Source: a virus. From it: a stretch of 64,000 nt of DNA. The notes beneath the pieces were generated by a model, which ran no database searches, was not told the origin of the DNA, and saw only the letters and a program-made list of their open reading frames with translations. Below, piece after piece: positions 8,641 through 56,737 of the stretch (its first letter is position 1; every line of letters begins with the position of its first letter). The DNA is taken from positions 1-64,000 of IMG/VR virus record IMGVR_UViG_3300028394_000076, one strand, 5' to 3'. The position numbers and the translations under genes were made by a program.

Positions 8641-9015
8641 ATGAAATCAAGTATAATATTAAACATCTTTTTGTTTTTTATTACATTCACATCTGTATCT
8701 CAGATAATAGGAGCGACATATAAGCTTGATAGTATAGAAATTGCACAATATGACTTACCGACAGAGGTAACATGGTATAATGCTAAAAGGGAGTGTAAAG
8801 AATTAGGTAAAGGTTGGAGACTACCGACTAAAGACGAATTAGAAAAAATGTATGAAAATAAGGACCTTATAGGTAATTTTGTTAACACTAATTATTGGAG
8901 TTCTACAGAGTATAATTCTGAATATACTTGGATGCAAGTGTTTACACACAAACTTATAGCAATAACCTTAAAAGAAGGACATATTAATGCTAGAGCGGTA
9001 AAAACAATAAAATAG
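8641..9015 (+). CDS. Secreted DUF1566/Lcl-type C-type-lectin-fold protein
   Basis: This 124-residue protein has a signal peptide at residues 1-20 (hydrophobic IILNIFLFFITF, then SVSQ). Next comes a domain with the DUF1566/Lcl signature: LGKGWRLPTKDEL, NYWSSTEY and a C-terminal ARAVKT. Such domains are found on bacterial cell surfaces. In a phage operon for recombination genes it is out of place, which suggests a host-derived moron that modifies the surface of the infected cell (inference). Confidence 0.65.
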   Translation: MKSSIILNIFLFFITFTSVSQIIGATYKLDSIEIAQYDLPTEVTWYNAKRECKELGKGWRLPTKDELEKMYENKDLIGNFVNTNYWSSTEYNSEYTWMQVFTHKLIAITLKEGHINARAVKTIK

Positions 9016-29878: not shown

Positions 29879-30742
29879 ATGAATAGAAGAATTTTAATAT
29901 CGGAAAATGAAAGATCTAGAATTTTAGGTCTACACGAAAATCGTAGAATGAAAGAATGGGGATTGATTAACGAACAAATGAAATACATTAAGAATACCAC
30001 AACGGGTAAAGCTACTATGCTCCCCGCTGGTTCAATTGTTCCGGCCGGTTCGGTTGAAATACAAAAAATTGAATTTGACGCTTTAAATAATCAATTAGGG
30101 ACTGGAGAAGCACCTGTTACTCCGGCACCTGTTACTCCGGCACCTGTTACTCCGGCACCGGTAAAATTTGTCCCAAACGGTTATGAATCTGTTGAAGCTT
30201 GTAAGGCGGCATACAATACTACGTATTTAAGTGGTGTTTCTATGAAGGTATTCGGGCAGATTTGGACAATTATTCAGAAAAAATGGTTAGAAGCCAAATG
30301 TACTGGTAAAACACCGTGTGATAAAAGTGGAGCATCAAATAAAAATTTGGCAATGGCAATATGTGAGGGAACCTTTAATATGGATGGACCTGTGGTTGCC
30401 AAAGCAATAGAACCGCCAATTGATGTGGCGAATACTCGAACCCCAACATCAGTATCGTCAACCGCAACACAATTAGCTTTATCGGGAACATCAGGAACAA
30501 CAGCTATATCAGGGACGACACCACTTCAGGGAGTTGTTGATACTACTAATATGGCATCAAGAAGCGACATTCGTCAACAATATAGACAAGGAAAAAGAGA
30601 TGTTAGAGAACTTGAGAAAGAATTAAGACAAAATCAAAACACATTACAAAGAATGGCGAATAAAATGACGCCAGAACAAAAGAAACAATACGAAACTAAA
30701 ATAGCTCAATTACAAATCCAAATAAATCAATCTGCAGCGTAA
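29879..30742 (+). CDS. Putative virion-packaged protein, leader type ILxSExERxRI
   Basis: This 287-residue protein starts with the module RILISENERSRILGLHEN and reaches LINEQ by residue 33. A Pro-Ala-Val-Thr linker (APVTP repeated) lies at about residues 78-97. A Cys-containing domain follows (ACKAAYNTTY, AKCTGKTPCDKSG, AMAICEGTF), and the C-terminus is a basic coiled coil. The Cys domain resembles that of the protein at 46823. It is probably an internal virion protein; no enzymatic motif is seen. Confidence 0.45.
   Translation: MNRRILISENERSRILGLHENRRMKEWGLINEQMKYIKNTTTGKATMLPAGSIVPAGSVEIQKIEFDALNNQLGTGEAPVTPAPVTPAPVTPAPVKFVPNGYESVEACKAAYNTTYLSGVSMKVFGQIWTIIQKKWLEAKCTGKTPCDKSGASNKNLAMAICEGTFNMDGPVVAKAIEPPIDVANTRTPTSVSSTATQLALSGTSGTTAISGTTPLQGVVDTTNMASRSDIRQQYRQGKRDVRELEKELRQNQNTLQRMANKMTPEQKKQYETKIAQLQIQINQSAA
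30111..30166 (+). repeat. 15-bp tandem repeats (Pro-Ala-Pro-Val-Thr linker)
   Basis: About three and a half units of GCACCTGTTACTCCG encode APVTP in the linker of the gene at 29879. Confidence 0.9.
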
Positions 30743-30752
30743 TATAAAAAAA

Positions 30753-30974
30753 ATGATTATTTCAGAGCAACAAATTAGAAAAATAATTAAAAGAGTAATT
30801 TTTGAAGATAGAAAAGAATCTATGTTAGAAAAAATGAAAAGAAAATTAAAAGGAATATCCGACGATAAATTAATTTATAATATGGAAAATGATTTACCTT
30901 GGGATTGGAAAGGATCAAAAGAAGCATACATTGAAAAATACGAAGATAGAAAATTTTCAAAAGGATCAAACTAA
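30753..30974 (+). CDS. Small basic protein with IISEQQ leader motif
   Basis: This 73-residue protein (MIISEQQIRKIIKRVIFEDR) is a leader-like amphipathic helix followed by a charged tail with ENDLPWDWKGSKEAYIEKY. The first residues match the IIITExQ module of other genes here. It lies 10 nt after the preceding gene, in the same orientation. The function is unknown. Confidence 0.5.
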   Translation: MIISEQQIRKIIKRVIFEDRKESMLEKMKRKLKGISDDKLIYNMENDLPWDWKGSKEAYIEKYEDRKFSKGSN

Positions 30975-30992
30975 TATGTGTAATATATAATT

Positions 30993-31583
30993 ATGAAAAA
31001 CAAACTATTTTTAACGGAATCTGAAAAATCAAGAATTAGTGATTTACACAGAATAGCAATTGTTACTGAAGGTAAAAACACTTTAAATGAGGCTAATTTA
31101 GTAGACATTCAAAATTTACTAATAAAAAAAGGAATGTTGGGACAAAAAGTTGCTGACAATAAATTAGGTCCATTAACTTTAAATGCGATCTATTCTGCAT
31201 TAACACAAACTCAGCCAACACAAACTCAACCAACAGGTGCTCAAGGAACGGGAACTCAAGAAACAGGAACTCAAGGAACTGGAGCTCAAGTACCACCAAC
31301 TCAAGTATCACCAATATATTATCCTTGGGTAAAAGAAGGTGGAAAACCTGTTCAAAACATAATAGATGCTAAAAAAGCCGACCCAAATTTTCAAACTTGG
31401 TTAAGTGGATTAAAAAAACTCACTACAGAACAATTGACCAAAATTCAACAAGACCTTAAAGCGGCTTTTTTAGAATCAGCTATAGGTGTTAAATTGGATA
31501 GCACCGAGGCATATCAACCATACATGGTTGCACTACAAACAATTAGGACTGCAATGGAAATGGTTAAAAAACCTCTGGTTTAA
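30993..31583 (+). CDS. Putative virion-packaged protein with peptidoglycan-binding-like domain
   Basis: This 196-residue protein has a leader FLTESEKSRISDLHRIA ending near TLNE (residue 33). Next comes a segment LVDIQNLLIKKGMLG with NKLGPLTLNAIYSAL, which has the rhythm of a PG_binding_1 domain. A Gln-Thr-Pro-Gly repeat linker and a C-terminal helical domain follow. The combination could bind the cell wall during DNA entry. The domain match is short, so the binding role is tentative. Confidence 0.45.
   Translation: MKNKLFLTESEKSRISDLHRIAIVTEGKNTLNEANLVDIQNLLIKKGMLGQKVADNKLGPLTLNAIYSALTQTQPTQTQPTGAQGTGTQETGTQGTGAQVPPTQVSPIYYPWVKEGGKPVQNIIDAKKADPNFQTWLSGLKKLTTEQLTKIQQDLKAAFLESAIGVKLDSTEAYQPYMVALQTIRTAMEMVKKPLV
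31206..31306 (+). repeat. Gln-Thr/Gly-Thr linker repeats
   Basis: Imperfect repeats of ACTCAAxxAACxGGA type encode TQPTQ and GTQxTG stretches in the gene at 30993. Confidence 0.7.
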
Positions 31584-31643
31584 ACAACACCAATAACACA
31601 TGTGTAACCTAAATAGTGGTAATAAATAAAACTTAAAACATAA

Positions 31644-31667
31644 CCCTCACTTCGGTGGGGGTTTTTT
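31644..31667 (+). terminator. Rho-independent terminator with TTCG tetraloop
   Basis: CCCTCAC pairs with GTGGGGG (one G-T pair) around TTCG, followed by six T residues. It closes the operon ending at 31583. Confidence 0.85.
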
Positions 31668-31678
31668 ATTTAACAAAG

Positions 31679-31687
31679 TATTTATCT
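31679..31687 (+). promoter_or_regulatory. TATTTATCT start-site box after terminator
   Basis: TATTTATCT ends 3 nt before the ATG at 31691. The stretch TTTAACAAAGTATTTATC is identical to that at 61466-61483, which also follows a terminator. Confidence 0.55.
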
Positions 31688-31690
31688 TAT

Positions 31691-32233
31691 ATGAAAATAG
31701 TTATATCTGATAACCAATATAGTCTTTTAAAAGAATCAGTTGCCATTAAAAATATTGAGGGAATTAAAAAGTATTGGAAAAACAAACTAAAAAAAGGTGA
31801 ACAAATTAGATTTGATAAAGATGATCTTGAGTATTGGGGTATTACTAAAACTTCAGATAGAATTCGCACCCAAATAGCGTTTCAAGAAATAGTTGGTGAT
31901 GAGGTTTTTGCTAAAAATCTTATTAAACCATTGTTAAATAAAACATTTTCAACAAAAGAGTTTAACGATAGAATTGTTGGTGGTTATGATTTTGAGTGGA
32001 TAATAACTCAAATGGTATATAATAATTTTGATTTCCATTTATATGGGAAAATTTTACCTGGTGGGTCTGTTACTCTTATAGATGGTAGGTATTTATCTTT
32101 AAATGATGCTTTAGAGGATGGGGATATGTGGTGGGAAATTGAAAGTGAAGTTAAGGATGTTGCTGAAGATTGTATGAACGAAATAATTTTACCTTTTACA
32201 GGTTATCAGGTAGAAGTGTCATTAATAAATTAG
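31691..32233 (+). CDS. Unknown protein with MKIVISDNQ leader
   Basis: I place the start at ATG 31691. An upstream ATG in the same frame (31655) lies inside the terminator. The 180-residue protein begins MKIVISDNQYSLLKES, the leader module seen in several genes downstream, followed by an alpha/beta region (GGYDFEWIITQMVYNN, LPGGSVTLIDGRYLSL) and an acidic C-terminus. It heads a four-gene operon (31691-33526) whose members all share the leader but not the body. Confidence 0.5.
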   Translation: MKIVISDNQYSLLKESVAIKNIEGIKKYWKNKLKKGEQIRFDKDDLEYWGITKTSDRIRTQIAFQEIVGDEVFAKNLIKPLLNKTFSTKEFNDRIVGGYDFEWIITQMVYNNFDFHLYGKILPGGSVTLIDGRYLSLNDALEDGDMWWEIESEVKDVAEDCMNEIILPFTGYQVEVSLIN

Positions 32234-32241
32234 ACGAGGAA

Positions 32242-32646
32242 ATGAAAATAATAATAACGGAACAACAATATGTAATGTTATCTGAGTCAAAATTAGATCC
32301 AATGCAAAATCTTATTAACATGGCTTTTGATGAGGTAAAAGAAAATTGTGATCGAGGTTTTTATATAAGGTCACACCACAATTACATATGTGACCCAATA
32401 AAAATGATTGAAGAAATAAAGGTGGTAGATGTATCAAAAACAACGTCTATGAATTACCTTGAAAAAAAAGAATTATCTCAAATACATATTACCGTTAATA
32501 TTCATCTTGAATCTATATATTTATTTTACGATTTAGATAATTTTATTTATCAGTTACAGGGGGAAGCAAGAAACATATTAGGTGGAAGTATTGTATCTAT
32601 ATCAATAGGAGAAGTAATCAATATAAGAAAAGAATTTAACTGGTGA
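32242..32646 (+). CDS. Unknown protein with MKIIITEQQ leader
   Basis: The start is at ATG 32242, which has a Shine-Dalgarno-like GAGGA just before it. Starting further upstream would overlap the previous gene and hide the leader. The 134-residue protein has MKIIITEQQYVMLSES followed by a region with ENCDRGFYIRSHHNYI and a beta-rich C-terminus. Function unknown; probably a virion-associated paralogue by leader. Confidence 0.5.
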   Translation: MKIIITEQQYVMLSESKLDPMQNLINMAFDEVKENCDRGFYIRSHHNYICDPIKMIEEIKVVDVSKTTSMNYLEKKELSQIHITVNIHLESIYLFYDLDNFIYQLQGEARNILGGSIVSISIGEVINIRKEFNW

Positions 32647-32942
32647 TGAAAATAATAATAACAGAAAACCAAGCGTCGTTAATAAGAAGGTTAAGTGAGT
32701 TAGAACGAATTCTTGATAAAATTATTAAGGTATTAAATGATGATATAAACGATAGTGGTCCGGGTTATAAACCTGATAATTTTGGTGTTTATGAAAGGTG
32801 GGTGATGGATAGAGTCAAAAGAGAGTTTAAAAATGATAATCCAAAGATTGAATTTCCAAATCACGATTTTATGATGTTAATGTCGGGACAATTTAACGAT
32901 AAAATTAGAAAAGGTTTTAATAAAGTTAAAAAGAGAAGATGA
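32646..32942 (+). CDS. Small protein with MKIIITENQ leader
   Basis: This 98-residue protein begins MKIIITENQASLIRRLSELE and ends with a basic tail. ATG 32646 shares a base with the preceding stop; an in-frame GTG one codon upstream (32643) is a weaker choice. The body (YERWVMDRVKREFK) is helical and basic. The function is unknown. Confidence 0.5.
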   Translation: MKIIITENQASLIRRLSELERILDKIIKVLNDDINDSGPGYKPDNFGVYERWVMDRVKREFKNDNPKIEFPNHDFMMLMSGQFNDKIRKGFNKVKKRR

Positions 32943-33526
32943 AAATAATATTAACAGAAAGACAACAGAACTTAATAACGGAAAACTTAACAGATGAGAA
33001 TCTTCGTAAGTTTTGTTATCAAATTTGGAATAAACAAAAAAAGATGGGAGAAGAGCCTAATCTTGATGATGTGATTTATGATATTACGGACATAAAAAAA
33101 AATACAAGAGAAGATTTAGATACTATTAGACCAATTTGGTATGAATACAATGGAGGTTATGATGTATTATTTGAAAAACTTAAAGATGAAATTGATACTA
33201 AGGAATATAAGTTAGTTGAGGCTGAATTTGATTTGGAAACCAAAATAAAGGTTGTCCATCTTGATAGACAAGGACATTTTGTTGAAATTATGGTTGATGT
33301 TGATCCTCGTGGAACTATAGAATTTCATGGTTGGGATGAAGAAACTGAGGAAGAATACGTGGTTAACGACACAATAGATGCCGCTTATCATGAGGCGTTA
33401 CTTAATTATGAAGGTGCTGATTTCGAAGGAATGATTAGAAGTTCAGTATATGATTTCTTTTATGATTTATTAGAAAAATACGGAATCCCAATTGATGTGG
33501 ATATTGACTTACAAGAAATTTATTAA
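32939..33526 (+). CDS. Unknown acidic protein with MKIILTERQ leader
   Basis: This 195-residue protein has the leader MKIILTERQQNLITENL followed by an acidic alpha/beta domain (VVHLDRQGHFVEIMVDVD, then IEFHGWDEETEEEY). It overlaps the preceding gene by ATGA. The same leader on four consecutive genes with unrelated bodies points to a shared targeting signal. No enzyme motif is evident. Confidence 0.5.
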   Translation: MKIILTERQQNLITENLTDENLRKFCYQIWNKQKKMGEEPNLDDVIYDITDIKKNTREDLDTIRPIWYEYNGGYDVLFEKLKDEIDTKEYKLVEAEFDLETKIKVVHLDRQGHFVEIMVDVDPRGTIEFHGWDEETEEEYVVNDTIDAAYHEALLNYEGADFEGMIRSSVYDFFYDLLEKYGIPIDVDIDLQEIY

Positions 33527-33538
33527 TACTTTTTAAAT

Positions 33539-33778
33539 ATGGGACCAATCGAAAAAAAAATCTTAGAATTATCAAAAACAGAAGGACTTTCTGAAGAAAC
33601 TTTAATGACTTTAACTATTTTGAAAAATCAAGTTAAAGATGATGAACGAAGACTTGCAAACAATGCGTATGAAAAAGGTTTTCACGATAAAGAAATGAAT
33701 AGAAAACCTACTTGGAATTACTTTGAAAATAATTATAGTAGTTATTTGTCAAATATTAAATTTGGTCAGATAAGTTAA
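33539..33778 (+). CDS. Small helical protein of unknown function
   Basis: This 79-residue protein (IEKKILELSKTEGLSEETL, then ERRLANNAYEKGFHDKEM) lacks the leader. It ends just before a host-type promoter, so it is probably the last gene of the preceding operon. No family is recognised. Confidence 0.5.
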   Translation: MGPIEKKILELSKTEGLSEETLMTLTILKNQVKDDERRLANNAYEKGFHDKEMNRKPTWNYFENNYSSYLSNIKFGQIS

Positions 33779-33792
33779 TTTTTGTATCTTTG
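33761..33792 (+). promoter_or_regulatory. Bacteroidota-type promoter (TTTG / TATCTTTG)
   Basis: TTTG at 33761-33764 and TATCTTTG at 33785-33792, spaced by 20 bp. The -7 box ends 4 nt before the ATG at 33797. Confidence 0.75.
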
Positions 33793-33796
33793 TGAT

Positions 33797-34081
33797 ATGG
33801 AAGACTTAACTAAACTTGAATTACCCGAAATTAAAATTCTTTGTAAACAATACGGAATAAGTATTGTTGGAGATCAAAAATCTTTAATCAAAAAACTCAA
33901 ATATTTCTTAGAACCTATTGGAGATGTGTTAAACACGCATCCTGGAAGAAAATTAACTAATGGTAAAAAAATTGTTGGAGTTAAAGTTAACAACCAAGAA
34001 GAAATTAATTCTATTAATAAGAAAAAGGGCCAATTTTTATATTATTCTTTGGGTTATCACTATTATATTGTGACAGAATAA
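33797..34081 (+). CDS. SAP-domain protein
   Basis: The start is at ATG 33797, 4 nt after a strong host-type -7 box; an ATG at 33782 lies in the promoter. The 94-residue protein begins with a SAP-like helix-turn-helix motif (LTKLELPEIKILCKQYGI, then KKLKYFLEP), which usually binds DNA. A second small domain (KIVGVKVNNQEEI, ending YYSLGYHYYIVTE) follows. It is probably an early DNA-binding protein. Confidence 0.6.
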   Translation: MEDLTKLELPEIKILCKQYGISIVGDQKSLIKKLKYFLEPIGDVLNTHPGRKLTNGKKIVGVKVNNQEEINSINKKKGQFLYYSLGYHYYIVTE

Positions 34082-34092
34082 TAAAACCATGA

Positions 34093-34101
34093 TATTTATT
34101 A
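34093..34101 (+). promoter_or_regulatory. TATTTATTA start-site box
   Basis: A perfect 9-mer ending 12 nt before the ATG at 34114. Confidence 0.5.
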
Positions 34102-34113
34102 AATAAAATTGAT

Positions 34114-34494
34114 ATGAAAAAACAAATACTTGAAGAACTAAAAGAGATGAGGTATCTTTTTAATTACGATAGAGGAAAAATTATTTCTGAACAAAATCAA
34201 AACCTTAATGAAATGATTGATTTAGAAAAAGGGTCTTTTGGTTATGATTTAGAAGAAGACGCTTTTGGTGCTTATGAAGATGAATTAGAAGAAGAAATTG
34301 ATTTTGAAGTTCCTACTATGGAGCCAGGAACAAAAGAAAAAGAAAGGACAATTACAAAACCTGGAACCAAACCCGATAAGGATTCACCATACAAACCTAA
34401 ACCTGGACCAAAGAAAAAACCAAAAGCTAAAAAAGGTGATATGCCTGATTGGTTAAGTTTTGATGAACTTGGAATTAATCTTAAACGAAAATGA
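34114..34494 (+). CDS. Acidic protein with leader-like N-terminus
   Basis: This 126-residue protein has a leader-type start (ILEELKEMRYLFNYDRGK, ending IISEQN), an acidic middle and a Pro/Lys-rich tail (KPKPGPKKKPKAKKGD). It overlaps the next gene by ATGA, so the two are co-translated. The leader and its position before a conserved virion protein suggest a head or scaffold component. Confidence 0.5.
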   Translation: MKKQILEELKEMRYLFNYDRGKIISEQNQNLNEMIDLEKGSFGYDLEEDAFGAYEDELEEEIDFEVPTMEPGTKEKERTITKPGTKPDKDSPYKPKPGPKKKPKAKKGDMPDWLSFDELGINLKRK

Positions 34495-35738
34495 GGAATA
34501 TTAAAAAAAGACTATATACGGAAGTAATCTCCAAAAAAGATTTATTAAGGATTATGGAAGCACCAATTGACTACGAAGGACCTGAAAGAATGGCTGGAGA
34601 TGTTGAGAGAAAAATTACGGGAAGAGAAACCCCGTATCATGGATTTTCTGCAATTCCAAATATGGATAGAGACTTTATCGAGTTAATATCTTCAAAAAGA
34701 TTCAAGGACTCAGTTGATAAAGTTAGAACGGCAATGGGGGACACAAGAACAATTCAAGGTTCAAACGCTCTTATGCAATTGATGGGGACTGTTGGTCAGG
34801 CAATGCAAAAACTTGTTATGATTCAAAATCAAAGCAAAAAACAACTTGAAGATTTGGCCATTGAGTTGGTTAAAAATGAGTTAGGTATACCTGATGATGC
34901 AATGCAATTCAAAGCTGAACTTGTATCGCAACCTATGGGAGCAGCTGAAGGGATGCAAAGTGAGTCTGAAATGCCAAGTGAGGAAGAGGTTGAAGAATTA
35001 ATGGGAGATATGGAAAACTTTAATTTGGAAAGAGAAAAAAGAAGATTCATTAATTCACTTATTCAAGGGGCCGCTTTTAAAGGGGGACACATGTATAATC
35101 TTGTTAAAAATGAGATCAATGACATTAATCCACAACTTATGAACCTATACGCTGTGACACAATCTTTAATGGAACACGCATATTGGATATTTCCTAACAT
35201 GGAAGGAATGGCCGGTGGTGGTGGTGGACAAATGGGACAATCAGAAGTTGATGAAGAAACAGATCCACCAACAGTAAGTGCTAAGGCAGTTACATTCCCA
35301 TTATTGGTTCATGAATTAGTAAAGGGAGTATATGAGATTTTTGGAACACACGGATTACCTGACGACCCAAGACAACAAGAAATGATATTAAACGCTGAAG
35401 ATACCTTACCAGCGGAAATATGGGACTCAAGGTTGGGTCCTATTTTTTGGGAAAAGTTTATGGCTTCATATCCAATTGAATTGTTTGATGAAGACAAAAA
35501 ACACATACAACATTATTTGTTTATGCGATTCTCGGCATTAAATGCGGAAGAGTTCATGAAGGTATCAAAAATGATTTTAAAAGGAGATCCATTAGGACAA
35601 CAATTTATTCAAGGAATGGTCAATGAGATTGTTAAAGATCTAAAAGATAAAGACTATAACGATGCCATGGGTTATGATGAAGATGATGAAGATGATGATG
35701 ATTTGAGTGGGGTTGACTTTAGTGATTTGGGACTTTAA
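34491..35738 (+). CDS. Conserved large-phage virion-type protein of unknown function
   Basis: This 415-residue protein has a basic leader-like start (RNIKKRLYTEVISKKDLLRI). The body looks conserved: KRFKDSVDKVRTAMG, QLEDLAIELVKNELGIP, EKRRFINSLIQGAAFKG, then FPLLVHELVKGVYEIF and IWDSRLGPIFWEKF. I recall proteins of this pattern in marine phage genomes, without a role. A poly-acidic C-terminus follows. It is probably structural. Its stop codon lies within the loop of a perfect terminator. Confidence 0.5.
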   Translation: MRNIKKRLYTEVISKKDLLRIMEAPIDYEGPERMAGDVERKITGRETPYHGFSAIPNMDRDFIELISSKRFKDSVDKVRTAMGDTRTIQGSNALMQLMGTVGQAMQKLVMIQNQSKKQLEDLAIELVKNELGIPDDAMQFKAELVSQPMGAAEGMQSESEMPSEEEVEELMGDMENFNLEREKRRFINSLIQGAAFKGGHMYNLVKNEINDINPQLMNLYAVTQSLMEHAYWIFPNMEGMAGGGGGQMGQSEVDEETDPPTVSAKAVTFPLLVHELVKGVYEIFGTHGLPDDPRQQEMILNAEDTLPAEIWDSRLGPIFWEKFMASYPIELFDEDKKHIQHYLFMRFSALNAEEFMKVSKMILKGDPLGQQFIQGMVNEIVKDLKDKDYNDAMGYDEDDEDDDDLSGVDFSDLGL

Positions 35739-42445: not shown

Positions 42446-42617
42446 TAAAAGAACAATTTCTAAAAAACATATCCTTAATAATTTGGATAACATAATGAAA
42501 TATCTAGACGCTGATGCGGTATTTACCACCGACGAATTCTCACTCAACGTTTATCGACTATTCAATCAAGGAAAATCAGAAGAAGAAATATTGGAATACA
42601 TAAATAATAATATATGA
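42435..42617 (+). CDS. Small unknown protein with GTG start
   Basis: This 60-residue protein (NIMKYLDADAVFTTDEFSL, then EEEILEYINNNI) reads as a compact helical domain. The start is GTG 42435. It overlaps both neighbours and ends 4 nt inside the glutamine synthetase start. The function is unknown. Confidence 0.5.
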   Translation: MGFNKRTISKKHILNNLDNIMKYLDADAVFTTDEFSLNVYRLFNQGKSEEEILEYINNNI

Positions 42618-43735
42618 AAATTAAATTGGAATACGTTTGGCTAGATGGATATAAACCAGAGCCAAACCTTAGAAGTAAAGTTAAGATTGTTGAATACAAT
42701 TCAGTTAGAAACGCATTTTTAGATGGGAATTTTCCTATGTGGAATTTTGATGGGTCATCAACTAACCAAGCTGAAACTGGAAACTCAGATCTTATTTTAA
42801 AACCTGTTAGACATTATATGAAAGACATGTCATCAACGGTTTATGTTTTATGTGAGGTATTAAATCCTGATGGGACAACACACGAGTCAAATAAAAGATC
42901 AAGTATTGGTGAAGGTTTTGAAGACCTTTGGTTTGGTTTTGAACAAGAGTATTTTATCTACGATAGAAAAAATAAATGTGTTTTAGGTCACGATGAAAAC
43001 AACTTAAAACCACAGGGTAAATATTATTGTGGTGTTGGTGAATATGTTGTGGGTAGAGATTTTGTTGAAGAACATACAAATATTTGTTTGAACTATGGTA
43101 TTGATATTACCGGAACAAACGCTGAGGTTGCGTTAGGTCAGTGGGAATATCAAGTATTCTCTCAAGGTAAATTAAAAGGTGGTGATGACCTTTGGATGAC
43201 AAGATACTTTTTATATAAAATCTCTGAAAAATATGAGTATCGTATTGAACTTCACCCTAAACCAATAAAATACGGTGAATGGAATGGATCAGGTCTTCAC
43301 ACAAATTTATCAACAGACATTATGAGACTTGATGGGAACGAAGAATACTTCATGGCATTATTCAACGCATTTGAATCAAGACATGAAGATCATATTAAGG
43401 TTTATGGATCAAACAACAATCTAAGATTAACAGGTGAATATGAAACTCAGGCAATTGATAAATTCAGTTGGGGTGTATCTGATCGTGGAGCTTCAATTAG
43501 AGTTCCTCAGGACACAGCAAAAGAATGGAAGGGTTATATTGAAGATCGAAGACCAGGATCAAATGCCGATCCTTATAAGATCATACGTGAGATTGTTAAA
43601 TCACTTGAGTTTACAGAACAAATATATAATACAAAACATATGATGACATCATTTGTTGATATAGATGGTCTTAATGGTAAATACGGAACAATGTCCAACG
43701 ATGAGTTATTAAAAGAATATAGAGAAGAAGAATAA
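42614..43735 (+). CDS. glnII: Glutamine synthetase, type II (GSII)
   Basis: This 373-residue protein carries the full GSII set: WNFDGSST, the metal-binding pair in WFGFEQEYF, the nucleotide loop KPIKYGEWNGSGLHTNLST, SDRGASIRVP, and EDRRPGSNADPY. No key residue appears lost. GSII is the eukaryote-like, octameric or decameric type, seen in some bacteria. Phage-encoded glutamine synthetases are rare. It could supply glutamine for nucleotide synthesis or alter nitrogen status in the infected cell. Confidence 0.9.
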   Translation: MKIKLEYVWLDGYKPEPNLRSKVKIVEYNSVRNAFLDGNFPMWNFDGSSTNQAETGNSDLILKPVRHYMKDMSSTVYVLCEVLNPDGTTHESNKRSSIGEGFEDLWFGFEQEYFIYDRKNKCVLGHDENNLKPQGKYYCGVGEYVVGRDFVEEHTNICLNYGIDITGTNAEVALGQWEYQVFSQGKLKGGDDLWMTRYFLYKISEKYEYRIELHPKPIKYGEWNGSGLHTNLSTDIMRLDGNEEYFMALFNAFESRHEDHIKVYGSNNNLRLTGEYETQAIDKFSWGVSDRGASIRVPQDTAKEWKGYIEDRRPGSNADPYKIIREIVKSLEFTEQIYNTKHMMTSFVDIDGLNGKYGTMSNDELLKEYREEE

Positions 43736-46268: not shown

Positions 46269-46703
46269 ATGAAAAATATTTTTTATTTATTGGTTAGCAT
46301 TATGTTATTATCTTCTTGTTATAAGGAAGATATTACTCCTCAAATACCTTTAGACCCACAACCAATTATAACTGACACCACTACGGTTGACAATGTGGTT
46401 TCATTTAAAAATACTACTTGGGTTATTAAAAAGGTTTTGAATACAAACTTTGATCAAGAATTAAGATCAGATACAATTGTTTTTATATCTAACAATGTTT
46501 ATAGTTTTAATGGGGTTCAGTCAACTTATAATTTTTATCCAAATAATTTAAACTATACCTTGACATTAAATAACACTCCTTGGGGACATATAAGTGCGGG
46601 TATTTATGAATACAATATAACACAAGGTGAAATTATAAATTGTCAATTTAATAATTATTTTACAGGACAAAATGTTTTGAAAATTTGGATGTATAAAGAA
46701 TAG
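46269..46703 (+). CDS. Lipoprotein with lipocalin-like domain
   Basis: This 144-residue protein has a lipoprotein signal peptide (YLLVSIMLLSSC, lipobox LSSC, with KED after the Cys). A beta-rich body follows (TTWVIKKVLN, NNVYSFNGVQSTYNFYPN, LTLNNTPWGHI), typical of Bacteroidota lipocalin-like lipoproteins. It would be anchored in a membrane of the infected cell and might block superinfection (inference). Confidence 0.65.
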   Translation: MKNIFYLLVSIMLLSSCYKEDITPQIPLDPQPIITDTTTVDNVVSFKNTTWVIKKVLNTNFDQELRSDTIVFISNNVYSFNGVQSTYNFYPNNLNYTLTLNNTPWGHISAGIYEYNITQGEIINCQFNNYFTGQNVLKIWMYKE

Positions 46704-46761
46704 TTTCTTTGTTTATCTTTAAAACAAAGTGGTGGAGTTTTTGATTAAATTCAATGTCAAC

Positions 46762-46796
46762 AAAAAAAAGGTGGAGAAATTCACCTTTTTTTGTTT
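46762..46796 (+). terminator. Rho-independent terminator
   Basis: AAAAAAGGTG (to 46773) pairs with CACCTTTTTT (from 46782) around GAGAAATT. Confidence 0.75.
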
Positions 46797-46803
46797 TTTA
46801 TTA

Positions 46804-46812
46804 TATTTATTA
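46804..46812 (+). promoter_or_regulatory. TATTTATTA start-site box
   Basis: A perfect 9-mer ending 10 nt before ATG 46823, just after a terminator. Confidence 0.5.
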
Positions 46813-46822
46813 TAAAACATTT

Positions 46823-47533
46823 ATGAAAAAAAATCTATTTGTAATTAATGAAAATGAGAAGGACCGTATTATAAATATGCATAAAAACGCAACTAAAAAT
46901 TTATATATACCTGAAAACAAAATATTGACAGAAGAAAAACTTCAAACGGTGAAAGTACAACTACCCGATGGACCATATCTTGGTAGCGGACAAGGATATG
47001 AATATAAACTTCTTACGCCAGATAAAAAAGATACGGGATATACCGTAATGTCTGCCACACCTTTTAGAGGAACCGTTACAGACGATCCGGTAACAGTTTC
47101 AAGTGGAATAACAACATCAAAAACTTGGGGTGTTGGAGGTGATTATTATTATGAAGCACCTATTTCTAATGCTGGATCAACTCAACAAGAGAAACCAACT
47201 AGGTATAAACGAGGGGCTTGTGAAACAGGGACCATTCAAGACTGTGCATTAGCGGTTCAAATGAGGATGAACGATGAATGTAAACCCGATATTTTAAACG
47301 CGGCTTTAGTTAATTTCCCTACCGCAAGAACGGGAACAGAAGGAAACTTTAAATTAAAAGAAGATAGTAAACTTGGATCAGGAACAAAGGCAGTTATTGC
47401 CGCTTGTAATTTACCAAAATTAGCTAAAGTTGGTGCCACAACCGCAACATCACAAGTATCTGGATTAAACGCAACAATACCTGTTGGAGGAACTTTAACC
47501 AATAATGACATAATGACTTTAATGCAACAATAA
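46823..47533 (+). CDS. Putative virion-packaged protein, leader type FVINENEKDRI
   Basis: The start is at ATG 46823, downstream of the TATTTATTA box; an in-frame ATG at 46754 lies in the terminator. The 236-residue protein has the leader FVINENEKDRIINMHKNA reaching KILTEE by about residue 39. A Gly/Ser-rich beta domain follows, then a Cys domain with TIQDCALAVQMRMNDECKPD that resembles the C-terminal region of the protein at 29879. It is probably an internal virion protein. Confidence 0.45.
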   Translation: MKKNLFVINENEKDRIINMHKNATKNLYIPENKILTEEKLQTVKVQLPDGPYLGSGQGYEYKLLTPDKKDTGYTVMSATPFRGTVTDDPVTVSSGITTSKTWGVGGDYYYEAPISNAGSTQQEKPTRYKRGACETGTIQDCALAVQMRMNDECKPDILNAALVNFPTARTGTEGNFKLKEDSKLGSGTKAVIAACNLPKLAKVGATTATSQVSGLNATIPVGGTLTNNDIMTLMQQ

Positions 47534-47541
47534 AAAAAGAT

Positions 47542-48519
47542 ATGGGAAAAATAATTTTAACTGAAAGACAATATAGGAATTTGAATCAAATTTTAATTGG
47601 CAAAGAAGTAGAAAACAACAAGGGTCGATTAAATGAATCTGTTTCTGAAGAACGAAAAATAGATCTTAATGGTGCTGCTATAAAACTTAGTAAATTAAAT
47701 AAATCAGTTAGTTCTTATACATTTGATTACCCAGTGGCTGGGGATATTTCAAAATTTGTTACACTTATGACGATTCCCCAAAATTGTGAAGAAGCGGCCA
47801 TACAATTTAAATCATGGCCTAATGGGCCTAATCAAATTGCAAATGCGTTTATTAATAATTTTAGGTTAGGTAATTTTTTACATATAACCGTCATGGGTTT
47901 TAAATCAAATGTAGATAAAATATTAAATCATTTTAAAAAAATAGGATATACAGGAGCTTCTGCTATTTTTACAAACGACAATAATGGTGAAAAAACTTAT
48001 AAATTATCTCCGTTTAGTTTTGGTTCTTGTAATACAAAACCAGCAGCAGCAACACCAGCGGCAGCAAATCTAAATTGGGGTGGTACAGGAACGGATCCTG
48101 ATTTATATTGGAATGGTTTGTTTGAAAAATTAAAACCATATGGAATTAAATTAGATGCTGGAGACGCCAAAACTGGACCATATATGTATTTTGGTAAATT
48201 TATGGTTTACAAAAATTATTCATATAATAATGGTTGTACTGTTATTGATTATCCTACCGAAGCATATAAATTTACAGGTTATGATGGAAAATACGTAGGT
48301 CAAACTTTAGACAAAATAGTGTTAACACCGTGTATTGGTAAGGGAGCACCCATAGATATGAAAACATTATTAGGAACAAAAAAATCAGGAACAGATAAAA
48401 AAACAGGAACTGAAGATAAAAAAGTATATGATAAACCAGTTGTAGGCGGTGGAGGCACAGGTGGAGGCACAGGTGGAGGTGGAGCACCATTTGGTGGTCA
48501 ATATGCTGATTTGGTTTAA
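47542..48519 (+). CDS. Putative virion-packaged protein, leader MGKIILTERQ
   Basis: This 325-residue protein starts GKIILTERQYRNLNQIL, an IIITExQ-type leader reaching RLNES by residue 33. The body has a repeated Ala/Pro linker (AAATPAAAN), a domain with FEKLKPYGIKLDAGDAKTG, and a Gly-rich C-terminus (GGGGTGGGTGGGG). It lies 8 nt after another leader-bearing gene. The function is unknown. Confidence 0.45.
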   Translation: MGKIILTERQYRNLNQILIGKEVENNKGRLNESVSEERKIDLNGAAIKLSKLNKSVSSYTFDYPVAGDISKFVTLMTIPQNCEEAAIQFKSWPNGPNQIANAFINNFRLGNFLHITVMGFKSNVDKILNHFKKIGYTGASAIFTNDNNGEKTYKLSPFSFGSCNTKPAAATPAAANLNWGGTGTDPDLYWNGLFEKLKPYGIKLDAGDAKTGPYMYFGKFMVYKNYSYNNGCTVIDYPTEAYKFTGYDGKYVGQTLDKIVLTPCIGKGAPIDMKTLLGTKKSGTDKKTGTEDKKVYDKPVVGGGGTGGGTGGGGAPFGGQYADLV

Positions 48520-48522
48520 TAA

Positions 48523-48963
48523 TTATATTTTTTTATAAAAAAAATCATAATCGTTGTCAGATTTAAGAATTTTATATTCTAATTTTTTATTAATTTTTTG
48601 TGAAAAAATATTGTTTTTTTTTGTTATTGATGATAAATAATCATACCCATATTTTTTTCCTAAATTTTCGGTATATGATCTGATTGTTTTTCCTAACCCC
48701 AAATTTCTATATTCTTTTTGAATATACAAATTATGTAAAAACAATGTTACAGTTTCTTTTAAAAAATCATAAGTTGTATAATTTTCTATGGTTTCTAAGA
48801 TTTTTTTTATTTTAACGTCATGATCATACATTACATCAATATCTAAAATAAATATTCTTCCAATTTCATTATTATTTGTTTTATCATTAATTGTTAATTT
48901 AATTCCTGGCCAAATAGTTATATTTCCCTCTACCTTATAATAATAATTTTCATTTAATGTCAT
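48523..48963 (-). CDS. GNAT-family acetyltransferase
   Basis: This 146-residue protein shows the GNAT core: FLHNLYIQKEYRNLGLGKTI (motif A acetyl-CoA loop, with RxxGLGK in place of the canonical Q/RxxGxG/A), KYGYDYLSSIT, then a C-terminal FSQKINKKLEYKIL. It transfers an acetyl group to an unknown target. It overlaps the 3' end of the NUMOD3 nuclease and is read from the minus strand. Confidence 0.65.
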   Translation of the reverse strand: MTLNENYYYKVEGNITIWPGIKLTINDKTNNNEIGRIFILDIDVMYDHDVKIKKILETIENYTTYDFLKETVTLFLHNLYIQKEYRNLGLGKTIRSYTENLGKKYGYDYLSSITKKNNIFSQKINKKLEYKILKSDNDYDFFYKKI

Positions 48964-49835
48964 ATTTTATATTTCCACTTATTTGTTAAAACAACATCAC
49001 CATTTGAAATTAACTCAAGTAAATATGGTTTTTTAATTTTAGATATATCTGTAATTTTGAATATTAAATTATTTTTATTACAAAAATCTTTAGCAAATTT
49101 AAATTTAATGTTGTTTATTTTTATTTTCCATAATTTTTTTGGTTTACATTCTATTACGTATTTACCGCCTATTACAAAATCGGGGAAATAGTTTCTTTTT
49201 ACACCATCAATTTCATATGGTATTTTATATTTTTCAGATTCACCATTTTCCCAAGTCAAATTAAACCTTTCTATTACAGATATCATATAACTTAATTCCA
49301 ATAAACTCCTAAAAAACCAACCTTTATACCAACCACAAATCCCATTACCTGAGTTTTTAGGTGGGGGTTTACCATACATTGAATTATTTTCTCCTGATTT
49401 AAGTTTGGATTGTAATTTTTTAAAATTGGACATTTTTATTTCCGCAATATCCTTTCCATACTTTTTAACCCATACATCATAAACATTTTTACCGTACATT
49501 GGGTTACTTTTTCCTTTAACTAATTTTGAAATTTTTTGTCTAAATTCATCAGTTTTATAAACACTATAGTCACGACCCTCAACTATTTTCTTTTTTGATT
49601 CATCACTATGTTTTTTACCAAAAAAAGGGTTCAATTTACCAAACTTACCATACATTGGATTATTTTCTCCTTTAAATCTTTCTGACATTCTTTTTTTAAC
49701 TTCTTCTGTCATTACTTCTTTTAGTCCACAACTTTTACATTTAGATTGTTTTTTTTCCGCATTTAACATATTATATTTGTTTGTATATGTTATTTCACAT
49801 TCACATTTTGGGCACTCTCTTTTAAAACTTGTCAT
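48960..49835 (-). CDS. Homing-type endonuclease with NUMOD3 motifs and PD-(D/E)XK fold
   Basis: This 291-residue protein has an N-terminal zinc ribbon (CPKCECE, CKSCG), at least four NUMOD3-like motifs (GENNPMYGKF, LNPFFGKKHSDE, KSNPMYGKN, ENNSMYGKP), and a C-terminal nuclease with FPDFVIGGKYVIECKPKK, a typical D..ExK core. NUMOD3 modules recognise DNA in homing enzymes. It lies on the minus strand, divergent from the kinase gene at 49895, which is itself disrupted; the two facts may be linked. Confidence 0.7.
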   Translation of the reverse strand: MTSFKRECPKCECEITYTNKYNMLNAEKKQSKCKSCGLKEVMTEEVKKRMSERFKGENNPMYGKFGKLNPFFGKKHSDESKKKIVEGRDYSVYKTDEFRQKISKLVKGKSNPMYGKNVYDVWVKKYGKDIAEIKMSNFKKLQSKLKSGENNSMYGKPPPKNSGNGICGWYKGWFFRSLLELSYMISVIERFNLTWENGESEKYKIPYEIDGVKRNYFPDFVIGGKYVIECKPKKLWKIKINNIKFKFAKDFCNKNNLIFKITDISKIKKPYLLELISNGDVVLTNKWKYKI

Positions 49836-52248: not shown

Positions 52249-52392
52249 TAATCTAAAATCATAGTTTGCTCAATACGTAAATTTAATGACCACTAATTCC
52301 AATTATATTCGTATTTATTGGTGAACTCAACCTGCCCGTGGAATATGGGGGTTTCCTAAAAAGATTCTTCAAGAGAGTAAATAATTTTATTT

Positions 52393-52406: not shown

Positions 52407-55154
52407 ATGAAGAATATATTAATTGGATTTTTTGTTTTATTTTCATCTTTCTTATTTTCTCAATCATGTACACACACTATTAAACGAACAGATACCTTTG
52501 GTGATGGGTGGAATGGAGGAACAGTCGCAGTTTCCGTTAACGGAGTAACCGTTTTATCTAATTTAAGTTGTGTTGGATTAGGTCCTACTAATTCTACATT
52601 TACTGCATCTGTTGGGTCAACCATTAGAGTATACCGAACACTCGCAGGGTCTTACCCTTCCGAAATGCGTATACAGGTTCTTAATGGTGCTGGGTCTATA
52701 ATAATCAATACTATTCAACCGGTTGCCGGAACAGCAACTACGGGAGGACAAACAGTGTTAGGTAGTTGTGCCGCAGTTGCTGCCGGTCCATGTACTAATA
52801 CTTCATCATATGGGTCGGCAACTGCACCATCAACACCAACAACTGTAACCATTAGTACTTGTCAATATCAAACTGAATATAATACAATTTATTCTTGTAT
52901 TGCAGGACAAACATATCAATCATATTACAATTTAGGTGGATACATAACGGTTAGGTCGGGAACATATAATGGTACTGTAGTAACTAGTGGAAACTCTCCA
53001 CTAAATTGGGTTTGTCCGTCCTCAGGAACATATTTTGTTCATTACAACACAAATAATACTTGTGGTACCGCTATGGGTTGTGGAACATCATCCATTTCTT
53101 GTCTAACTTGTTTGGCACCACCCCCACCATCCAACGATTTAGTATGTAACTCAACTCCAATTACTTGTGGTCAAACACTATCAGGAACCACCGTAAATGC
53201 AACTAACTCTGGAACGGGTGAAAATGGTTTATGTTCTGTTAGTCAAACACAACCCGGTGTTTGGTATGTTATTTCAGGAAACGGACAAATTATGACCGCA
53301 AATCTTTGTGCTACAGCATGGGATAGTAAAATGTCTGTATTTAGTGGTCCTAATTGCTCAACATTATCATGTGTTGGAGGTAATGATGATTTTGGGCCCG
53401 CTTGTTCTAGTTCATCAGCCTCATTTTCATGGACTTCGTCAATTGGAACAAATTACTATATATTAGTTCATGGGTATAGCGCAAGTAGTAGTTTTTCTAT
53501 TGGTCTAACTTGTATATCTCCCCCGCCAGCAGACCCAACATCAATATCTGCGACACAAAATACTATTTGTAATGGATCATCTACCACTCTAACCGCAAAT
53601 GGTGCTGTGGGTGTGGTTTATTGGTATATAGGAGGTTGTGCCTCCACTTTCGTGTCAACTGGAAATTCCATCTCGGTAAGTCCTGCGTCAACCACTACAT
53701 ACTATGCGAGAAATCTAAACGGAGGTCTTTTTAGTAGTGGGTGCGCTTCAACAACAATAACAGTTAACCCTAATCCCACTGTAACTATAAGTGCGGCAAC
53801 CAATACAATATGTAACGGATCAAATACCCAATTGATATCTAACATTAGTGGAGTGTCATCACCAGGAAATCTTGTTGTAACCATCTCCACCAGTGGATTC
53901 TTAGACGAAAGTTCTTGGACTTTAACAAATAGTTTAGGGACTGTAATTGGTTCAGGTGGACCTTATGGTTTAGGGTCAACAAATATAATTCCAATCGGTT
54001 CATCGGCAAATGACCCATATACATTTAATGTGGAAACTCAAGGAATATGGAATGACAACACGGCAAATTATTTGGTAACTTGTAACGGAACAACGGTCCT
54101 AAGTGGAAGTTTAGTTGGTGGACAGAGCATAACACAATCAATATCATCTTGTGGGTCTTCTCCCGGTGTAACATATCTATGGACACCTTCAAACGGACTT
54201 ACAAATGCAAGTGCTCCAAGTCCATTTGCTTCTCCTACGACTACACAGACCTATCAATTAACCGCAACGGCAAATGGATGTTCGGCATCAACTTCAACAA
54301 CAATAACCGTAAATCCTTCTGTTGGTTTTGTGTCTACAATATCTGGTAATAATACCATAATTGCCGGAACCCAAGAAAGTTATTCAATAACACCGGTAGC
54401 AAACTCAAATTACCAATGGGCATACACCGAGTCCGTAACTGCACCACTATGGATAAACGTTCCGAATTCTAACTCTCCATCAATTACATTTACTTGGCCA
54501 CAGACAACAACTAATGGTTCGGCTAGAGTTATTATCAGTAATGCTTATGGGTGTGGGACTCAAACCAGATTTTTTAATATTGTCACTAATGGTGCTCTTC
54601 CTGTCGAACTATTAAGTTTTGTTGGAGTGTGTGATAATAATTTAATATCATTAACTTGGAAAACGGCAAGTGAACATAATTCTGATTATTTTGAAGTTCT
54701 TAAATCAAGAGATGGTATTAATTGGTCAATATTAGCCACTTTAAATTCGGCTGGTAATTCTACAGAAGAATTAACTTATACCACAAAAGATGAAAACGCA
54801 ATTGACGGGAATAACTATTATAAACTTCTTCAATATGATATTGATGGACAATCAAAAGAGTATGGACCAATAAATGTTACGTGTAACAAAAACACAAAAG
54901 GTTACTTTTCAATATTTCCTAATCCAAGTTCAGGTTCATTTCAAGTTGTGTTAAACAATAAAAATATGGTTGGTGATGGAAAACTAATAATTAAAGACAC
55001 AAAAGGATCTGAAATACTTAATAAAGAAATTAATATTGTTTCAGGAATTAATTTATATAATATTATTGATTTAAATGTGGTGGATGGAATTTATTATGTT
55101 CAGGTAAGTAACGGAAATTTTTCAACACAAGTAATAAAACAAATAATAAAATAA
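52407..55154 (+). CDS. Secreted multi-domain protein with T9SS C-terminal sorting domain
   Basis: The start is at ATG 52407 because it opens a clean signal peptide (IGFFVLFSSFLFSQS, Cys next). The 915-residue product has an N-terminal DGWNGG-type domain, several Cys-rich beta domains, Ig-like domains (ISATQNTICNGSSTTLTANG and later copies), a LSWKTASE-like C-terminal module (LTWKTASEHNSDYFEVLKS) and a final sorting domain with FSIFPNPSSGSF and ending in YYVQVSNGNFSTQVIKQIIK. The end pattern is that of type IX secretion cargo. A phage gene with such a tag would be exported and attached to the host surface by the host T9SS. Confidence 0.8.
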   Translation: MKNILIGFFVLFSSFLFSQSCTHTIKRTDTFGDGWNGGTVAVSVNGVTVLSNLSCVGLGPTNSTFTASVGSTIRVYRTLAGSYPSEMRIQVLNGAGSIIINTIQPVAGTATTGGQTVLGSCAAVAAGPCTNTSSYGSATAPSTPTTVTISTCQYQTEYNTIYSCIAGQTYQSYYNLGGYITVRSGTYNGTVVTSGNSPLNWVCPSSGTYFVHYNTNNTCGTAMGCGTSSISCLTCLAPPPPSNDLVCNSTPITCGQTLSGTTVNATNSGTGENGLCSVSQTQPGVWYVISGNGQIMTANLCATAWDSKMSVFSGPNCSTLSCVGGNDDFGPACSSSSASFSWTSSIGTNYYILVHGYSASSSFSIGLTCISPPPADPTSISATQNTICNGSSTTLTANGAVGVVYWYIGGCASTFVSTGNSISVSPASTTTYYARNLNGGLFSSGCASTTITVNPNPTVTISAATNTICNGSNTQLISNISGVSSPGNLVVTISTSGFLDESSWTLTNSLGTVIGSGGPYGLGSTNIIPIGSSANDPYTFNVETQGIWNDNTANYLVTCNGTTVLSGSLVGGQSITQSISSCGSSPGVTYLWTPSNGLTNASAPSPFASPTTTQTYQLTATANGCSASTSTTITVNPSVGFVSTISGNNTIIAGTQESYSITPVANSNYQWAYTESVTAPLWINVPNSNSPSITFTWPQTTTNGSARVIISNAYGCGTQTRFFNIVTNGALPVELLSFVGVCDNNLISLTWKTASEHNSDYFEVLKSRDGINWSILATLNSAGNSTEELTYTTKDENAIDGNNYYKLLQYDIDGQSKEYGPINVTCNKNTKGYFSIFPNPSSGSFQVVLNNKNMVGDGKLIIKDTKGSEILNKEINIVSGINLYNIIDLNVVDGIYYVQVSNGNFSTQVIKQIIK

Positions 55155-55202
55155 GAAAATATCTTTGTAATATTAAATTAAAGTCATAAAAAGAATATAA
55201 AG

Positions 55203-55228
55203 CCCCCAAATAAAAAATGGGGGTTTTT
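55203..55228 (+). terminator. Rho-independent terminator
   Basis: CCCCCA (55203-55208) pairs with TGGGGG (55218-55223) and five T residues follow. It closes the T9SS-type gene. Confidence 0.85.
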
Positions 55229-55258
55229 GTTTTTATTAGAAAAATTTTATTATCTTTG
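55226..55258 (+). promoter_or_regulatory. Bacteroidota-type promoter (TTTG / TATCTTTG)
   Basis: TTTG 55226-55229 and TATCTTTG 55251-55258, spaced by 21 bp. The -7 box ends 6 nt before ATG 55265. Confidence 0.65.
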
Positions 55259-55610: not shown

Positions 55611-55832
55611 ATGAAAGAAAGAGAAGTAATTTACGGAGTGTGTGATAAGATGGGTTCATGTGATTCTTATTTTGGTTTTTTTAAAACAGAAAAAGATGCT
55701 GAACACGAGGTTGAAGTTCAAGCTAATAGACTCAAGGAAGACTTGGGTATGATGGATATTGACATTCAAACGGACCGGGCATTATTCGATGGTAAATTGG
55801 TAATAGTAATTCACAGACATGTATTAAGATGA
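55611..55832 (+). CDS. Small unknown protein
   Basis: This 73-residue protein (IYGVCDKMGSCDSYFGFFKT, then ALFDGKLVIVIHRHV) appears as an alpha/beta domain. It overlaps the start of the repeat gene at 55829 by 4 nt, so the two are co-translated. The function is unknown. Confidence 0.5.
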   Translation: MKEREVIYGVCDKMGSCDSYFGFFKTEKDAEHEVEVQANRLKEDLGMMDIDIQTDRALFDGKLVIVIHRHVLR

Positions 55833-56737
55833 TAAATCCAACAGGAAAAAAATTAGAAAAAATTATCTTTAAATTGTTTGACGATGCAAGTCAAGGGGTT
55901 GATAGATATAATCACAATGGCAGTCTATGGGCTATATTCACCAATGAAATGAGATGGGTTGTTGAATACACTAAAGACCAAACTCTATGGTATAACTATA
56001 GCTTCTTTAAAGATGAGATGGAGTTAATTGGTTTGGATTGTGTTGAAGATAAAGACCTAATTAAAAAGTGGTTTGAATCAAGATTTTTGGATATGCCAAA
56101 GGTTGAAGATGCTTTTGACCCATTTTTCGATCAAGATCAATATGTTGAAGACGTTATTCAAAATGGGGTGAGACACACCGCTCCAGACGCATCAACAATC
56201 GTATATGCGGTTGAAGACACCATTCAAAATGGGGTGAAAGATATCTCTAGTGTATTATATAAGGAGTTACTCAGCGTTGAAGACACCATTCAAAATGGGG
56301 TGAAACACACCAACGCTGCATACACGCTGTCAATCTTGGATGTTGAAGACACCATTCAAAATAAGGTGAAAAACACCTACTCAGACAAAATTCCTCATGA
56401 ATATGATTGGTCTGACGAATTCACAGAAGAAATTGAAGACACCATTCAAAATGGAATAAAGGATACCAAAAGTATGTGTGGAAAACGTGGTGGTAGAGTT
56501 GGTAATACCATTCAAAATGGGGTGAAACTTACCAAAAGTACAATAATGAGTCAAGATTCTAAAATTGAAAACACCATTCAAAATGGAGTGAAAGAGACTA
56601 TTGGCACACTACGGCGTACTTGTAAGTGGGGCGTTGATGATATTATAAAAAATGGTGTAAAGGAAACTCATGATGATTGTTCAAATAACATTGCAAGAGT
56701 TGAAGGTATAGTTAGAATAGGTGAAAAATTAAATTAA
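55829..56737 (+). CDS. Protein with CRISPR-like in-frame 36-nt repeats and variable spacers
   Basis: This 302-residue protein has an N-terminal domain of about 105 residues (KKLEKIIFKLFDDASQG, LWAIFTNEMRWVVEY, TLWYNYSFFKDEMEL). The rest is eight repeats of VEDTIQNGVKxT separated by unrelated segments of 10, 10, 10, 18, 10, 10, 11 and 10 residues, then a degenerate ninth repeat. The repeat DNA is nearly identical at all codon positions while spacers share nothing. I recall VED.IQNGVK.T-like repeats in other phage proteins, but no function. Variable segments between fixed repeats could present changing surfaces. Confidence 0.65.
   Translation: MINPTGKKLEKIIFKLFDDASQGVDRYNHNGSLWAIFTNEMRWVVEYTKDQTLWYNYSFFKDEMELIGLDCVEDKDLIKKWFESRFLDMPKVEDAFDPFFDQDQYVEDVIQNGVRHTAPDASTIVYAVEDTIQNGVKDISSVLYKELLSVEDTIQNGVKHTNAAYTLSILDVEDTIQNKVKNTYSDKIPHEYDWSDEFTEEIEDTIQNGIKDTKSMCGKRGGRVGNTIQNGVKLTKSTIMSQDSKIENTIQNGVKETIGTLRRTCKWGVDDIIKNGVKETHDDCSNNIARVEGIVRIGEKLN
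56144..56737 (+). repeat. Nine 36-nt direct repeats with mainly 30-nt spacers
   Basis: Repeats start at 56144, 56210, 56276, 56342, 56432, 56498, 56564, 56633 and 56699 (last one degenerate, contains the stop). Spacer lengths are 30, 30, 30, 54, 30, 30, 33 and 30 nt. The core GACACCATTCAAAATGGGGT holds a CCATT/AATGG inverted repeat. The unit resembles CRISPR spacing, but the reading frame is open throughout and no cas genes are seen nearby. Confidence 0.85.

Follow-up and report, generated by a model that had tools for sequence, protein, structure and literature searches.

A candidate structured leader RNA linked to predicted type IX secretion cargo in large phages of Bacteroidota

Phage-encoded cargo of the type IX secretion system (T9SS) was reported in 2020 for Cryophage (Nat Commun, PMC7468147), and the accessible text of that paper proposes a hijack of the host T9SS, with superinfection exclusion among its effects. 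The locus described here is similar in that genes of Bacteroidetes phages carry type A sorting domains and vary between near-identical phages; however, Cryophage is a phage of 76 kb whose cargo comprises an endoglucanase, a GH39 protein and a PA14 protein, and no leader RNA is described in the accessible text. T9SS sorting domain proteins are also present in crAss-like phages, close to BACON proteins, but there the BACON-domain proteins lie near head genes, and the accessible part of the paper describes no comparable leader or tail swap (PMC6949934). Among bacterial proteins, NucA, RemZ and RemA of F. johnsoniae share the type A C-terminal sorting domain (CTD), a seven-stranded beta-sandwich with a near-invariant lysine close to the C terminus (PMC10994853), but these are encoded by host genes, whereas the phage cargo has its own leader and promoter. 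The giant protein GhpA of Aureispira was the best Foldseek match of the cargo protein studied here, P0001 (E 1e-11), and the Ig-like repeats are 18-22% identical over the aligned parts; however, GhpA is a bacterial protein of about 5000 residues, and similar repeats do not imply the same function. As for the leader, the riboswitches and ribosomal protein leaders of Rfam 15 likewise combine a three-way-junction 5' leader, conserved junction strands and a start-proximal hairpin, but the phage leader accompanies an exported cargo, not genes of metabolism or of the ribosome, and has no family match. Neither the leader nor the swapping of tails was described in the literature searched. The cargo can thus be placed as a new family within the already known phage-encoded T9SS cargo, and the leader as a candidate new RNA class.

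The window, i.e., the whole stretch of 64,000 nucleotides that was analysed, comes from a 66,450-base IMG/VR contig (IMGVR_UViG_3300028394_000076). For most of its genes, relatives were found in a largely conserved order in G012, the record of a 292-kb T4-like jumbo phage that encodes a T4-like portal (PF07230), a sheath and a tube; T4-like portals were found in 4 of 21 records. A T4-type portal and a contractile tail were not found within the 66-kb record, which is a fragment, and both are present in the collinear G012. The sequence-only reading, which proposed a phage gene for a T9SS cargo protein, had named contamination from a bacterial contig as a danger to that proposal; we rejected it because the window is collinear with the 292-kb phage and the gene is found in the same slot of many viral contigs. 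A Flavobacterium-like host seems likely because, in the comparisons of primase and portal, the Flavobacterium phages vB_FspM_immuto rank with the nearest cultured relatives (33-38% identity), although for the portal a Microcystis phage outscores them.

Several other genes of the window deserve mention. A phage glutamine synthetase, with both Pfam domains over the cut-off, is encoded at 42614-43735, and its copy in G012 is 72% identical. At 46269-46703 and 8641-9015, there are two further exported phage proteins, one of which is a lipoprotein with C-Y-K-E-D at the lipobox cysteine, which could be a surface export signal, while the other has a signal peptide and an Lcl_C domain. An N-terminal stretch like M-K-I-I-I-T-E-S-Q-x-x-L-I is common to many otherwise unrelated proteins (29879-35738, 46754-48519, 51001, 60706 and 61488), is frequent in G012 as well, and looks like a capsid-targeting propeptide that would be cut by a prohead protease. 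The features of the cargo locus are collected in Table 1.

Table 1. Features of the cargo locus, in coordinates of the window
Feature	Position	Strand	Basis
TATTTAT promoter-like (-10) motif, probably late	52312..52318	+	recurrence before the leader and enrichment in G012
Structured leader RNA core, three-way junction P1/P2/P3	52324..52381	+	R1 73.2 bits, E 4e-20; same fold by RNAalifold; covariation
P4 hairpin between leader core and start codon	52373..52403	+	stem kept, mean z -2.5 over 31 unique regions
Exported T9SS cargo gene P0001 (915 aa)	52407..55154	+	ORF reading; dN/dS 0.20-0.22 against relatives
Sec signal peptide, residues 1-19, MKNILIGFFVLFSSFLFSQ	52407..52463	+	sequence pattern; model helix 2-17
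PPC-like (pre-peptidase C-terminal) domain, residues 241-369	53127..53513	+	VIA-align Z 11.5 to 5sv5, rmsd 2.9, 102 aligned; fold match only
Ig-like domain Ig_7 (CHU_C associated), residues 374-455	53526..53771	+	PF19081, 2.9e-9, over cut-off
FN3-like LPVELLSF domain, residues 731-828	54597..54890	+	model strands and FN3 matches
T9SS type A C-terminal sorting domain, residues 833-915	54903..55151	+	TIGR04183 27.1 bits; seven strands; PorU and 8GLK_D matches
Terminator-like hairpin GCCCCC(loop)GGGGG-TTTTT after the gene	55202..55229	+	read from sequence

The open reading frame with its Sec signal peptide and the Ig-like domains were as the sequence-only reading had claimed (Table 1); that reading had missed the folded leader RNA in front of the gene, the promoter motif and the variants with a short tail, all of which are described below. 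Apart from the CTD, the domains of P0001 are beta-sandwiches (PPC-like, Ig-like and FN3-like), and region 371-915 resembles the GhpA grappling hook according to Foldseek and VIA-align. The AlphaFold2 model on which the structural comparisons rest is of moderate confidence (mean pLDDT 65.6), and a sequence search of the PDB with the whole protein gave no significant match. The best reading of P0001 would be that of an adhesin-like protein because no catalytic domain was found in it.

Relatives of P0001 were found in 32 other viral loci, and the slot between the homologues of the genes at 51001 and 55217 holds many of them, while in G012 this slot is closed and the cargo gene is located elsewhere. 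The Sec signal peptide pattern is present in the window protein and in all of the complete relatives. Across the family, the whole-gene dN/dS was 0.12-0.37, which signifies purifying selection. The domain modules of P0001 match diverse secreted proteins of Bacteroidota at roughly 27-60% identity, and its LPVELLSF domain is common to bacterial secreted proteins. Such matches would suit a recently acquired bacterial hitchhiker without a function for the phage, but we found no full-length close bacterial homologue, the gene is under purifying selection and conserved across the phages, and the leader in front of it was found only in phages. Moreover, the comparison of codon use that had been proposed for detecting a recent transfer gave no sign of one, as the gene resembles its neighbours (GC3 of 0.20 vs 0.21 in the other genes). 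A functionless passenger is therefore very improbable.

The synonymous divergence varied several-fold among the segments of one gene pair, and the cargo gene is thus a mosaic. At 48960-49835 on the minus strand, 2.5 kb from the cargo gene, the window encodes a protein with NUMOD3 repeats and a TnsA-like endonuclease N-terminal domain, a probable homing endonuclease that possibly drives the exchange of cargo genes. The gene at 55829-56737 encodes repeated V-E-D-T-I-Q-N-G-V-K motifs and varies among the sister phages (59-68% identity vs more than 90% for most neighbours); its protein had no Pfam match.

The C-terminal sorting domain had been proposed from the sequence alone, and the outcome of the profile check with PF18962 and TIGR04183 differed between the searches. 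In the whole-protein scan, residues 836-914 scored below both cut-offs (19.2 bits against 27 for PF18962 and 20.8 against 23 for TIGR04183), while in a six-frame search the scores were 25.4 and 27.1 bits, respectively, of which only that of TIGR04183 was over its cut-off. The CTDs of the relatives scored up to 36 bits, over the cut-offs, and both models matched all nine family members that have a full CTD. The CTD profile of the family also matched chain D of PDB 8GLK, named Endonuclease I (E 0.0021). This entry is cited in the paper on the F. johnsoniae translocon that describes the NucA-bound complex (PMC10994853), and the name of the chain fits that complex. The resemblance of the P0001 CTD thus appears to exceed chance, given the TIGR04183 score in the frame search, the higher-scoring relatives, the nine members matching both models and the 8GLK match. 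Furthermore, seven strands are predicted at residues 833-914 in the AlphaFold2 model, these match the C-terminal residues 1059-1156 of PorU in 6za2 (VIA Z 9.9, rmsd 2.2, 81 aligned), and the lysine K81 near the C terminus is invariant in 9 of 9 sequences (alignment A4). Together with the phage context, the CTD matches support the earlier view of a phage-encoded T9SS cargo.

Nine family members in the alignment have the full CTD; the remainder end in the FN3-like domain followed by a short tail of about 35 aa, e.g., INLAGQEVNENATGIIIEIYEDGSIKRIIR. This tail had no match to the curated sorting-domain models (PF18962 and TIGR04183), three strands are predicted in it, and Foldseek with the short-tail model returned weak FN3-like matches only. 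It also terminates secreted-type proteins of one bacterial genome, G033 (locus title: Fluviicola). We infer from these sequences that the short tail may be a minimal T9SS signal and that its bearers are exported by the T9SS. The full CTD and the short tail were found to be swapped between phages in which most of the neighbouring genes are 95-99% identical (L018 vs the window). The exchange of domains and of the export tail, either the full CTD or the short one, between otherwise near-identical phages looks new.

Export of the product by the host T9SS would be expected because it combines a Sec signal peptide with a type A CTD or a short CTD-like tail. A display of P0001 on the infected cell would be the likely outcome, but cargo of this system may be either anchored or released (PMC10202324). 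It could be argued instead that P0001 is a part of the virion, i.e., a tail fibre or a capsid decoration, and that its CTD resemblance is incidental: Ig-like domains are frequent in phage virions, tail proteins are among the fold matches of P0001, and the cargo cluster in the 229-kb record G020 is 7-8 kb from the portal and terminase. However, virions are assembled in the cytoplasm, from which the Sec signal peptide of all of the complete relatives would remove the protein; 31 of 32 products have kept the CTD or tail, and the cargo gene is distant from the tail-like genes at the start of the window. Mainly because of the signal peptides, we consider a virion role to be quite unlikely.

Export is also predicted for other proteins of these phages. 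In G020 (L146:629-7546), a run of five signal-peptide genes near the terminase and portal encodes a subtilase with SprB repeats and a T9SS CTD, a 275-aa SprB-repeat protein with a CTD, a 198-aa protein, a 318-aa protein with the short tail and, closing the run, a relative of P0001. In G012 (L140:2147-9550), a cohesin-domain protein with a T9SS CTD, a C-type lectin that matches dockerin weakly (below the cut-off) and a secreted NS-type nuclease are neighbours, and these genes possibly provide a phage-encoded cohesin-dockerin pair on the host surface. G012 also encodes a type B CTD protein. Such type B proteins (TIGR04131) were found at L136:2755-5214 and in 8 of the 9 searched leader-bearing records of at least 150 kb, and in some leader-bearing records a protein of about 195 aa is located near the leader-linked cargo.

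The upstream alignment revealed a GC-rich block that was conserved in every relative with upstream sequence, down to 37% protein identity. It folds into P1 (CTC/GAG), P2 (GACC-bulge-CCCAU/AUGGGGGUU) and P3, which are followed by P4 that ends beside the start codon; the RNAalifold structure was the same as the one drawn manually. In 30 distinct sequences, 98% of the cells pair, both sides have changed in 5 of 15 pairs, and none of 500 shuffles reached the observed value on any measure, while pairing in the slid controls was 32-57%. The covariation support should be considered good but not overwhelming because the shuffles keep the relatedness among the sequences and because P1, P2 and one P3 pair each owe their changes to a single sequence. 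The P2 helix and the junction strands are near-invariant. With a conserved, covarying fold at a fixed place before one class of genes, the leader has the properties expected of a structured RNA.

An alternative is that the leader is not a working RNA but a DNA anchor for the homologous exchange of cargo genes. The mosaic downstream genes with their strong differences in synonymous divergence between segments of one pair, the differing N-terminal halves of the cargo and the relocated gene of G012 with its closed slot would all agree with this. Evidence against an anchor comes, however, from the compensatory changes in P1, P2 and P3 and from P4, whose stems persist while sequence identity falls to 22-55% in most of the distant relatives. 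Pair 6-30 is G-U in 27 of 30 sequences, so that pairing is possible on the mRNA strand only, and the leader lies directly behind the promoter motif. We consider an anchor in place of an RNA to be rather unlikely, but both roles could coexist. Far less probable is a coding role of the leader, in which it would act through a short regulatory peptide, M(V/E/A)(D/Y)GG(F/S), instead of as an RNA. All 37 sequences have an ATG (GTG in the clade of the window) at the corresponding place, but GGG GGT shows no synonymous change, the variable sites of codons 2 and 3 are hairpin loop positions, and neither the length nor the frame relative to the cargo (0, 1 and 2) is constant. An upstream reading frame was accordingly disfavoured on its frame and substitution pattern.

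A pattern scan located the leader in 62 viral stretches, many of which are near-duplicate contigs; this first pattern fixed the P2 sequence, and the E-values of R1 are rough. All of the readable downstream genes start 35-70 nt after the leader and encode signal-peptide proteins, a few contigs ending before the gene. The 32 unique complete products comprise 15 with the full CTD at their end, 16 with the short tail and one (L013) that stops close to the end of its contig, while their N-terminal parts differ and are of several unrelated kinds. Looser scans added four divergent leaders (R1 56-63 bits), all before signal-peptide proteins, of which three products are complete and each end in a CTD or tail; one of the four leaders has a compensatory P2 pair. 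Other than these four, confirmed by R1, the hits of the relaxed patterns were mostly chance, and three hits of a loosened P2 pattern (L300-L302) were dismissed as they look like unrelated sequence. In the 635-kb huge phage LR745206.1, a leader of 72.8 bits precedes a secreted protein of 117 aa that is mostly CTD (PF18962, E 1.5e-5, 25.6 bits against a cut-off of 27). In total, 35 of 36 distinct complete leader-linked products end in a T9SS CTD or the short tail, and exactly one leader per record was found in 18 of 18 records of up to 436 kb. The families of Rfam 15 gave chance-level matches at the leader, none at the gathering score. The leader was not found in the plasmids searched, the exact-type pattern occurred in none of 395 bacterial genomes, and in a partly overlapping set of 399 genomes there were seven weak hits only (25-27 bits), which we judged to be spurious since they are unlike the phage leader and apparently lie inside coding DNA. 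So far, the leader is confined to phages.

Of 33 unique upstream regions, 24 have the TATTTAT motif 12-15 nt ahead of the leader, compared to 2% of random 40-mers. It is also the most enriched heptamer upstream of the genes of G012 (99 of 301, 7.6-fold), those of the sheath and tube included, but it is not limited to structural genes, as about a third of all G012 genes have it. From its position and its sharing with the sheath and tube genes, it is likely that the cargo gene is expressed late and that its transcript begins with the leader. The hairpin after the gene was not called by a terminator scan with loops of up to 8 nt.

Based on these observations, we propose, as a probable though by no means assured reading, that the locus is a late unit with just one gene, carried by a large T4-like phage whose host belongs to the Bacteroidota, and that it consists of a promoter, a 5'-terminal folded leader RNA, a T9SS cargo gene and a terminator. 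The comparison shows that its transcribed strand carries the conserved three-way-junction RNA and then the hairpin that ends next to the start codon. Acting in cis, the leader may control how the cargo mRNA is translated or how stable it is, and the near-invariant P2 helix and the junction strands would then form a putative binding site for a ligand or a protein. The product, with its Sec signal peptide and type A CTD (or, in sister phages, the short CTD-like tail), would be exported by the host T9SS. Late in infection, the adhesin-like protein would then be anchored on or released from the infected cell and could change how the cell binds neighbours, surfaces or further phages, and its domains may be swapped among phages to keep pace with partners that change.

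The short tail offers a natural experiment for the minimal T9SS signal, and the leader is a testable candidate RNA family, which marks exported phage cargo of unrelated architecture in phages of up to 635 kb. These results suggest that, late in infection, large phages of Bacteroidota remodel the surface of the cells they infect. The wider claim, whose chances we see as evenly balanced, is that these phages have a new class of structured leader RNA that is reserved in each genome for a single interchangeable gene of exported T9SS cargo and acts both as a late control element of host-surface remodelling and as a fixed platform for exchanging cargo domains and sorting tails. If lytic phages do use the host T9SS late, the infected cell would gain a surface chosen by the phage, which would bear on superinfection exclusion, aggregation and spread among Bacteroidota.
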